From assembly GCA_002010065.2 (NCBI GenBank), contig MTMD02000015.1:98971-162970 (forward strand): DNA of 64,000 bases. The letters run 5' to 3'. Made by a program: the position numbers and the translations under genes. Below the pieces are notes generated by a model, which worked only from the letters and a program-made list of their open reading frames with translations, did not search any database and was not told the DNA's origin. Shown here piece by piece: positions 25,185 to 27,523 of the stretch (the first letter of the stretch is position 1; every line of letters starts with the position of its first letter). Source of the DNA: Candidatus Pyrohabitans jungbluthii (GTDB taxonomy: Archaea > Hydrothermarchaeota > Hydrothermarchaeia > Hydrothermarchaeales > BMS3B).

Positions 25185-25210
25185 GTTTATATTATATGAT
25201 AAATCATGAT
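25185..25210 (+). promoter_or_regulatory. TATA box and overlapping palindromes before the FrhB-mtd pair
   Basis: GTTTATATTA (25185-25194) is a TATA element; ATGAT-AA-ATCAT (25196-25207) and the perfect 8-bp palindrome ATCATGAT (25203-25210) follow between TATA box and expected transcript start near 25216. This is a good place for a repressor operator. Inferred from position only. Confidence 0.4.
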
Positions 25211-25238
25211 AATTTACCTCTTGTGAGCAGGTGGTATC

Positions 25239-26702
25239 ATGTTGCTCAAGGATTTTCTCAGACCGAGTCTTGAGGCTCTCATCGAGGAGAGCAATGTGAT
25301 TAAGGAGGACAAGCCTCTTAAGAGCTTGGCCTATGTGGGGATGCCCTGCCAGATTCAGGCTGTGAGGAAGGCGCAATTTTTTGAGGTTAAGTCAAAGCAG
25401 GAGTGGCCCCGCAGGATTAAGGTTACCCTCGGGCTCTTCTGTGCGGAGAGCTTCCCCTACCGCGAGCTGGTGAAGCTCGTGGAGAGCAAAGGCATTAGCA
25501 TGGATAAGATAAAGAAGTGGGACATAAAGGGCAAGCTTCTGGGGTACCACGATGAGGGTGTGCTCAAGATACCCCTTAAGGAGGCGAAGAAGTTCGCCCG
25601 TGAAAACTGCCACTACTGCCTTGACTACACCGCTGAGCTCGCGGACATAAGCGTCGGCGCTGTGGGCTCTCCCAAGGGCTGGAATACGGTAATAGCGAGG
25701 ACGCCGCGCGGCTTGGCGATAGTCGAAGGTGCCATACACGAGGGCTACCTCGAGACCAGAGAAGTGGACGAGGGCGATAAAGGTTTAGGGCTGCTGAGGA
25801 AGCTCTCAAAGCGCAAGTTTAAGGGCGCGTGGAAGAACAAGGCGAAGAAAGAGGAGAAGGGCGCCAAGGTAATGCACCTGGATACAACGCATGAGCGCGA
25901 CCTGGAGAAGCTGCTCTCTCTCACCACTGTAGAGCATCGCATAGACGAGCTCATACGCGATGTTGTTGAACCTGGGCTGTGCGTCACCTGCGGCGCATGC
26001 GAGGCGAGCTGTGCAGAGAAGATTATTAAGATAGACGAAGATGGCACGCCCCAGAAGCTGAAAGATTGCGAGTCCACAGACTGCGGGCGATGCTATTCGC
26101 TCTGCCCGCGCACAACACTGCCAATAGATTTAATTGAGGAGCACCTCTTCGGGAGCAGGCGCTACCAGTTTGAGAAGCGCATTCTGGGGCAGTACATCGC
26201 CATATTCTCCTGCCGCGCTGCCAGCGAAGGCATAAGGAAGCGTGGACAGGACGGAGGCGTGGCCACGGCGCTTCTGAAATACATGCTCGACCATGGTATC
26301 GTCGACGCTGCCGTGAGCGTTACCCAGGGTGATAAGCCCTGGTATCCGGTGAACTACGTCTCCACCAGCAGGGAAGACCTTATGAGAAGCGCCGGTACAA
26401 TATACAGCACAGCCCCCACGATAATCGCCGCGAAGCGTGCACTCAAGCAGCACGAAGAGTTCTCCAAGTACTACAGTTTCCTTGTATCGAAAGGCTTTTT
26501 ACCAGAGCTGGCGATCGCTCAGGAAGAGGCGAGCAAGGCCAAGAAGGGCGAGGTTGTAGTGCAGGTTGACGAGGAAGAGCTTAAGCGCAGGCGTGCAAAG
26601 ATAGAGGCGGCGCTTGAGCGCATCTCTAAGCCAGCAGTGAAGATGATGATAGAGCAGGGCAAGCATGAGAAAGCTATAGAGATGCTTGTGAAGGAGAGAT
26701 GA
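25239..26702 (+). CDS. F420-linked FrhB/FqoF-like oxidoreductase with circularly permuted domains
   Basis: 487 residues. Normal FrhB/FqoF order is ferredoxin domain, FrhB_N, FrhB_C. Here FrhB_C comes first (about 28-190: VGMPCQIQAV with C37, LGLFCAESF with C68, C124xxC127, ADISVGAVGSPKGWNTV). Then come two [4Fe-4S] motifs (C248, C251, C254, C258; C277, C282, C285, C289), then FrhB_N (about 335-400: GQDGGVATALL, DKPWYPVNYVSTSRED, SAGTIYST), and a charged tail. The N- and C-terminal ends both lie in the natural linker, as expected for circular permutation. It has its own promoter and ribosome binding site. It overlaps mtd by 4 nt, so it may handle F420H2 and ferredoxin electrons with Mtd. Confidence 0.8.
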   Translation: MLLKDFLRPSLEALIEESNVIKEDKPLKSLAYVGMPCQIQAVRKAQFFEVKSKQEWPRRIKVTLGLFCAESFPYRELVKLVESKGISMDKIKKWDIKGKLLGYHDEGVLKIPLKEAKKFARENCHYCLDYTAELADISVGAVGSPKGWNTVIARTPRGLAIVEGAIHEGYLETREVDEGDKGLGLLRKLSKRKFKGAWKNKAKKEEKGAKVMHLDTTHERDLEKLLSLTTVEHRIDELIRDVVEPGLCVTCGACEASCAEKIIKIDEDGTPQKLKDCESTDCGRCYSLCPRTTLPIDLIEEHLFGSRRYQFEKRILGQYIAIFSCRAASEGIRKRGQDGGVATALLKYMLDHGIVDAAVSVTQGDKPWYPVNYVSTSREDLMRSAGTIYSTAPTIIAAKRALKQHEEFSKYYSFLVSKGFLPELAIAQEEASKAKKGEVVVQVDEEELKRRRAKIEAALERISKPAVKMMIEQGKHEKAIEMLVKER

Positions 26703-27523
26703 GCATGACGAACATAGGAGTGCTTAAAACTGGTAATATTGCCACTTCTCTCGTTTTAGAGCTTTTACTTGACGAGCGGGCAGACCGCGAGGATATTAGC
26801 GTTGAGGTGTTTTCCACAGGTGCAAAGATGCAGGCAGATGATGCGGAGAAGCTTCTCTCCCGCGTTGATCTCGACGCCTACGATTTAATACTGTACACCA
26901 CCCCCAATCCCAGCGCGCCAGGACCAAAGAAGGTGATAGAGGCACTCAAAGGCAAGCGCGCCATTGTAATTGGCGACGCTCCCGGGGTTAAGATGAAGGA
27001 GAAGCTGGAGGAGTATGGCTTAGGGTATATCTTTATCCTTGCGGACTCCATGATAGGGGCAAGGCGGGAGTTTTTAGACGCTACGGAGATGGCGCTCTTC
27101 AATGCGGACATGCTCAAGGTGCTCGCCGCCACGGGTGCGCTCCGCTTAGTGCAGGAAGAAGTGGACGCGGCGATAGCAGCTGTCAGGAATGGTGAGGACT
27201 ATCTGCCCCGCATTGTTGTAAACGCCGCCAAGGCTGTGGCGAGAGGAAGGTTCTCCAACCCATACGCCAAGGCGAAGGCGAGGGCTGCCTACGAGGCGGC
27301 GGCGCTGGTGGGAGAGCTTAATGTTAAGGGGTGCTTCGTCGTCAAGGAGGCGGAGAAGTACATCCCGATAGTAGCCGGTGCCCACGAGCTGCTGCGAAGC
27401 GCAGCCCGGCTGTGCGACGAGGTTAGAGAACTGGAAAAAGCCACAGACGCCCTTGTGAGGACACCCCACGCGAGAAGCGGAGAGGTGCTGAGCAAGACAA
27501 AGCTGCTAGAGAAGCCAGAGTAG
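26699..27523 (+). CDS. mtd: F420-dependent methylenetetrahydromethanopterin dehydrogenase
   Basis: 274 residues. Interconverts methylene- and methenyl-H4MPT with coenzyme F420 in the archaeal C1 branch. Signature beginning IGVLKTGNIATSLVLELLLDERADR, abbreviated here as IGVLKTGNIATS, and later GAKMQADDAEKL, TTPNPSAPGPKKV and GDAPGVKMKEKL match the Mtd family, normal length about 275. The start ATG (26699) overlaps the preceding stop in ATGA; ATG at 26705 is an alternative. Coupled to the permuted F420-linked oxidoreductase. Presence argues for H4MPT-based C1 metabolism. Confidence 0.95.
   Translation: MSMTNIGVLKTGNIATSLVLELLLDERADREDISVEVFSTGAKMQADDAEKLLSRVDLDAYDLILYTTPNPSAPGPKKVIEALKGKRAIVIGDAPGVKMKEKLEEYGLGYIFILADSMIGARREFLDATEMALFNADMLKVLAATGALRLVQEEVDAAIAAVRNGEDYLPRIVVNAAKAVARGRFSNPYAKAKARAAYEAAALVGELNVKGCFVVKEAEKYIPIVAGAHELLRSAARLCDEVRELEKATDALVRTPHARSGEVLSKTKLLEKPE

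Follow-up and report, generated by a model that had tools for sequence, protein, structure and literature searches.

Directly upstream of mtd in the genome of Candidatus Pyrohabitans jungbluthii (Hydrothermarchaeia) lies a gene whose product carries the two halves of an FrhB-type flavoprotein in reversed order, raising the question of whether it encodes a working enzyme and, if so, how this enzyme is linked to the F420 used by Mtd. We analysed this gene within a 64,000-nucleotide stretch of DNA (hereafter, the window) from a genome that is 99.95% complete (Table 1). We consider it likely that the protein is an FAD- and [4Fe-4S]-containing F420 oxidoreductase from an old, permuted branch of the FrhB family, which links the F420 of Mtd with a partner at the level of ferredoxin.

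Table 1. Features of the flavoprotein locus, numbered from the first nucleotide of the window.
Feature	Position	Strand	Basis or remark
TATA-like element TTTATATTA	about 25186..25194	+	sequence
Putative operator, 17-bp direct repeat ATGATAA-ATC-ATGATAA	25196..25212	+	invariant in the family
Ribosome-binding site AGGTGG, 4 bases 5' of the ATG	25229..25234	+	sequence
Permuted FrhB-family flavoprotein ORF, 487 aa (FrhB_C / ferredoxin / FrhB_N / tail)	25239..26702	+	
FrhB_FdhB_C half, aa 28-178	25320..25772	+	Pfam E 3e-46
2[4Fe-4S] ferredoxin domain, ~aa 242-292	25962..26114	+	E about 1e-4, under the Pfam cut-offs; all eight Cys present
FrhB_FdhB_N half, aa 323-395	26205..26423	+	Pfam E 1e-23
C-terminal helical tail, about aa 430-487	26526..26699	+	homologous to the C-termini of an FwdG-like ferredoxin and KorB in Hydrothermarchaeia
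mtd	26699..27523	+	ATGA overlap with the flavoprotein gene

The sequence-only reading of this locus had proposed the domain order FrhB_C, ferredoxin, FrhB_N, and the placement of the Pfam models confirms it, with the FrhB_C and FrhB_N halves (PF04422 and PF04432) scoring 157 and 84 bits against cut-offs of 23 and 22, respectively. The ferredoxin domain between them contains its cysteines at positions 248/251/254/258 and 277/282/285/289. In an alignment with FrhB of M. barkeri (6qgr_B), residues 312-403 of the window protein correspond to residues 3-94 and residues 29-199 to residues 100-272. The halves are thus swapped, and both new ends fall, as had been claimed, in the short linker between FrhB_N and FrhB_C. 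About 27 extra residues precede FrhB_C and about 83 follow FrhB_N; in most permuted homologues outside the family, the termini lie close to the linker itself. The ferredoxin-FrhB_N stretch aligns without a break to residues 11-173 of 8riu_B, the CODH-bound F420 reductase, so that the parent protein was likely arranged as ferredoxin, FrhB_N, FrhB_C, with the cut lying between FrhB_N and FrhB_C. Since the open frame exceeds the ORF by only four codons, no upstream part of the gene is missing.

Both halves carry the elements of an FrhB-type active site. In FrhB of M. marburgensis, the FAD loops comprise residues 23-30 (QDGG), 71-77 and 131-138, and the cluster ligands are C104, C134, C192 and C195; these positions map to QDGG, GTIYS, GLFCAES and C37, C68, C124 and C127 of the window protein. 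The FrhB_C half accordingly holds the four [4Fe-4S] ligands, invariant in 49 homologues except for one undetermined residue at position 124, as well as the isoalloxazine loop GLFCAES and the KGK motif of the F420 loop. The FrhB_N half provides the FAD pyrophosphate motif QDGG (residues 337-340) and the FAD loop GTIYS (residues 386-390), with QDGG and GTxY kept across the 49 homologues; Lys75 of the FrhB loop is replaced by Ile388, as it is in 12 of the 49. Structure prediction, previously suggested as a check, returned a fairly confident full-length model (pLDDT 83, pTM 0.79). The ferredoxin-FrhB_N part modelled alone (residues 237-487) reached a pLDDT of 69 and a pTM of 0.49, a loss of confidence that is expected if this part needs the other half. 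In comparisons with sequential aligners (Foldseek and VIA-align), which covered mainly the FrhB_C side and are blind to a permuted overlay, the FrhB_C half of the model matched FrhB structures with a Z score of 14.9 and 2.5 Å over 195 residues; together with the ferredoxin domain, it matched ElpB (8rvu_E) with a Z score of 12.9 and 4.7 Å over 227 residues. Taken together, the conserved motifs and the confidence of the model suggest that the two reversed halves fold into a single FrhB-like FAD/F420 site.

A domain order that looks unusual at first might point to an assembly artefact or to a pseudogene joining two genes. However, the flavoprotein with this order and tail is present in eight members of the family (G000-G007; 63-97% identity, with one copy ending together with its contig at residue 460), which represent three genera and different metagenome projects, and the core order is found in more than 100 other archaeal genomes. 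Moreover, the gene is under strong purifying selection, with all domains similarly constrained (against three sister species, dN/dS is 0.06-0.08 over its full length and about 0.11 in the tail). The seven further genomes and these dN/dS values exclude the misassembly or frameshift that the sequence-only reading had named as its own refuter, leaving its view of an intact, functional gene in place and an artefact practically out of the question. An intact gene could still encode a protein whose FrhB_C and FrhB_N halves pair between two chains, forming a domain-swapped dimer, or whose halves each serve another protein, given that they lie far apart at the ends of a long chain with N- and C-terminal extensions. 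Yet the FAD and cluster residues are all kept in both halves, the constraint is similar on all domains and both halves are confidently modelled within a single chain. We therefore consider such pairing unlikely and note that, even if it occurred, it would leave the chemistry the same.

The permuted order is by no means confined to this locus. A search of archaeal genomes for the domain order and its neighbours, as had been recommended, found it across the Hydrothermarchaeia, in one Archaeoglobaceae MAG and in 19 of 20 Methanobacteriota genera, with 125 of the 151 genomes of this group carrying it. Glutamate synthase clusters account for many of the Methanobacteriota loci inspected. In the phylum of Archaeoglobus, the permuted order was detected in 1 of 392 genomes at a strict cut-off with the best five candidates per genome scored, a setting under which distant ones may be missed. 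The window's genome itself encodes two further permuted paralogues, both tail-less, one located 5' of porC, porD, porA and porB and the other by NapG, NapH and multihaem cytochrome genes. The idea of a permutation unique to the window locus was therefore discarded. The genomic surroundings of permuted frhB genes vary further. In many Methanobacteriaceae (Methanobrevibacter and relatives; L121-L162), the gene lies away from glutamate synthase, beside an M42 aminopeptidase gene, and in Candidatus Methanovirga (L148) it adjoins thiG and a radical SAM gene. The third paralogue of the window's genome (L063 3812-11358, G000:C2; also L141 and L152) forms a cluster with molybdopterin oxidoreductase, NapG, NapH and multihaem cytochrome genes, perhaps constituting an F420H2-linked respiratory unit.

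For the glutamate synthase subunit of M. marburgensis, the legend to Fig. 9 in Mills et al. (eLife 2013;2:e00218) already mentioned swapped halves. Furthermore, FdhB has been described as FrhB with a C-terminal ferredoxin and Fsr-N as FrhB with an N-terminal ferredoxin (Susanti and Mukhopadhyay, 2012). Thus, the ring FrhB_N, FrhB_C, ferredoxin exists in all three rotations, represented by FdhB, FpoF/Fsr-N and the permuted group, and the earlier assumption that known FrhB, FqoF and FpoF proteins follow the order ferredoxin, FrhB_N, FrhB_C does not hold in general. In a concatenated tree with the halves re-ordered canonically, built without seven mostly long-branched canonical rows, 30 permuted and 24 canonical proteins were split on one branch (98/96). 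A first quick tree that included those seven rows required two changes, with its starred branches forcing no more than one. The ferredoxin-FrhB_N half alone recovered the permuted group (96/93); the FrhB_C half alone neither recovered nor rejected it (p_AU 0.18). A fusion of two unrelated genes is not supported by these two half-trees. The permuted proteins likely share a single ancient origin. Tandem duplication followed by trimming, as put forward in the sequence-only reading, is plausible and fits one origin, but the event is old and not specific to the window's genome. Two canonical ferredoxin-FrhB genes stand in tandem in Lokiarchaeota CP070831 (L164 5524-8160), the kind of layout that trimming could turn into a permuted gene.

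The promoter, ribosome-binding site and mtd overlap previously ascribed to the gene are all present (Table 1). In each of the seven family genomes in which the contig extends further, mtd comes directly after permuted frhB, and the two overlapping genes would be co-transcribed; glutamate synthase genes are absent beside the window flavoprotein. The same adjacency occurs in two genomes of another family, f6 (G014 and G019), whose copies are tail-less, and a test of whether these two mtd-linked groups arose together gave a p_AU of 0.13. In families f3, f4, f8, f9 and f10, mtd has no frhB-type neighbour of any kind, indicating that Mtd does not require permuted FrhB. Just 3' of the TATA-like box, the 17-bp repeat is invariant in the family, with drifting flanks. 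Only four sites in the whole genome match it with at most two mismatches: those 5' of frhB-mtd, frhB-por and fwd, plus a fourth close to an Orc1/Cdc6-like gene. The copies before frhB-por and fwd (G000:C1:54328 and G000:C8:81224) differ at two positions, but each version is conserved in the family, and eight family genomes share an identical fwd version, ATGAAAAATCATGACAA. The fourth match (G000:C2:159052) lies between genes whose translations are Orc1/Cdc6-like and HerA-like and may be due to chance. Neither the kor operon nor the Nap cluster nor the f6 mtd operons yielded a copy of the element. Its distribution suggests that the repeat may act as a shared operator, through which these operons would be co-regulated.

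Outside the family, permuted proteins lack the tail, a module of about 50 residues. The same module ends an FwdG-like 2[4Fe-4S] ferredoxin of the fwd operon and KorB. The sequence-only reading had noted neither this module nor the upstream repeat. Profile comparisons with hhalign scored 57 for FrhB-FwdG, 45 for FrhB-KorB and 37 for FwdG-KorB, compared to maxima of 17-18 in 200 column shuffles each. At E <= 0.001, 22 of the 23 Hydrothermarchaeia genomes carried the tail, and 1 of 127 other archaea gave a partial match. The window's genome contains exactly three bearers, counted with a search profile that included the KorB rows; KorB matches independent of this profile gave E values of 1.3e-4 and 7.2e-4, in addition to the hhalign comparison. 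Searches of Pfam and the PDB returned no credible match to the tail, and an engineered repeat protein was set aside as a match of composition. Its helices are modelled with moderate confidence (pLDDT 63-72). We suggest that the tail probably docks the flavoprotein to a partner to which the FwdG-like and KorB subunits are likewise bound.

A short helical segment of this kind might instead mediate self-association, just as the CODH-zeta F420 reductase forms a homodimer interface through its C-terminal extension. The presence of the same tail on three different C1/2-oxoacid enzymes is easier to understand if they share a partner, but this argument is not decisive, and oligomerisation stays a credible, if less favoured, explanation. 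Going beyond docking as such, the tail could be the tag of an undescribed archaeal supercomplex that gathers formylmethanofuran dehydrogenase (through its FwdG-like subunit), a 2-oxoacid:ferredoxin oxidoreductase (through KorB) and the Mtd-linked FrhB on a common partner and moves electrons among C1 metabolism, F420 and 2-oxoacids without free ferredoxin, with one regulator controlling mtd, fwd and por through the 10-bp-spaced repeat, a scenario that we advance as speculation and rate as rather doubtful. As to the enzyme itself, its usual annotation would make it a subunit of an F420-reducing [NiFe] hydrogenase, in keeping with the fact that its best named families are FrhB models and that such a beta subunit has been reported in the JdFR genomes (Carr et al., 2019; PMC6775978). 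However, it reaches only 237.7 bits with the equivalog model TIGR03289 (cut-off 331.5), and its neighbour, conserved across the family, is mtd. Moreover, no FrhA above the cut-off is present in the window's genome, whose sole [NiFe] hydrogenase is HysAB-like, lies on another contig and scores 161 bits as FrhA against a cut-off of 392. A role as hydrogenase subunit is thus highly improbable, and the 'F420-reducing hydrogenase beta subunit' of the JdFR genomes probably also belongs to the permuted or CODH-type family and does not point to an Frh hydrogenase.

As an F420 oxidoreductase, the flavoprotein would exchange hydride between F420(H2) and its FAD, which would split the hydride into single electrons and pass them via the cluster of the FrhB_C half and the two ferredoxin-type clusters, three [4Fe-4S] clusters in all, to a ferredoxin-level partner. 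Co-transcribed with mtd, it would most likely keep the F420 pool of Mtd in contact with the low-potential electron flow of the Wood-Ljungdahl pathway, either by oxidising F420H2 produced by Mtd or, during CO2 fixation, by using electrons that CODH, Kor or Por place on ferredoxin to reduce the F420 that Mtd needs. Both partner and redox direction are presumptive, and the direction may be set by the reductive or oxidative sense of the pathway. For the Hydrothermarchaeota, CO oxidation and sulfate reduction have been proposed (Carr et al., 2019; PMC6775978). In the literature consulted, we found no biochemistry of a purified permuted FrhB member. A search for HdrA-type partners with Pyr_redox_2 pointed weakly to one candidate, a frame of 1223 aa on contig 8. 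Canonical FrhB genes of the window's genome lie beside cdhA and beside methyltransferase genes, and since the one hydrogenase of this genome is not Frh, the FrhB family probably serves as an F420 port for several enzymes, by analogy with CODH and Fwd of Ca. Ethanoperedens and with ElpB-Hdr-Fmd. The gene adjoining cdhA (L251 5789-9385, G000:C2) encodes a canonical ferredoxin-FrhB protein that resembles the zeta subunit of Ca. Ethanoperedens CODH. The other locus (L237 5709-10778, G000:C14) places canonical FrhB by MtaA-like, corrinoid protein and AcsV-like genes and possibly functions in F420-linked corrinoid activation.

The permutation itself is mentioned in one figure legend, but in the literature that we found, its extent and likely single ancient origin seem to be undescribed: nearly all genera of the Methanobacteriota carry it, as do three or more paralogues in the Hydrothermarchaeia. 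FpoF, FdhB and the permuted group provide a clear case of natural circular permutation in a multi-cofactor enzyme. The label 'F420-reducing hydrogenase beta subunit' for such genes leads to doubtful hydrogenase claims, for instance in the Hydrothermarchaeota. If our readings of the shared tail and upstream element are true, they offer a handle on how F420, formylmethanofuran and 2-oxoacid metabolism are wired in an uncultured archaeon.

Several known systems share the three modules of the window protein. FpoF/FqoF, Fsr-N and the CODH-zeta and FwdI proteins of Ca. Ethanoperedens (8RIU, 8RJA) also have the same cofactors, but their order is ferredoxin, FrhB_N, FrhB_C, and the window protein stays below the cut-offs of the FpoF and FqoF family models (138 vs 444 and 136 vs 475 bits); in Ca. 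Ethanoperedens, F420 reduction by CODH and Fwd has been shown biochemically. FdhB and ElpB contain the modules in the order FrhB_N, FrhB_C, ferredoxin, and in the case of ElpB, F420H2 oxidation feeds Hdr-Fmd supercomplexes. Closer in architecture are the POR-linked permuted FrhB proteins of the Hydrothermarchaeia and one Archaeoglobaceae MAG, one of them encoded in the window's genome (L002/L062), which share order, modules and a similar upstream element. They differ in their neighbours (porC, porD, porA, porB), lack the tail and show 37-42% identity, and some, such as L062, have lost ferredoxin cysteines. A POR-linked FrhB6, of whichever domain order, has been described in ANME-1 (Chadwick et al., 2022). 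The F420-dependent glutamate synthase subunit of the Methanobacteriota (M. marburgensis ADL58239; FGltS(II)-alpha of Susanti and Mukhopadhyay) likewise has the same order and falls on the same side of the tree (98/96), but it is surrounded by glutamate synthase genes, has no tail and shares roughly 31-40% identity with the window protein. While the domain order itself is already known, the mtd operon, the shared tail and the shared upstream element are new here.
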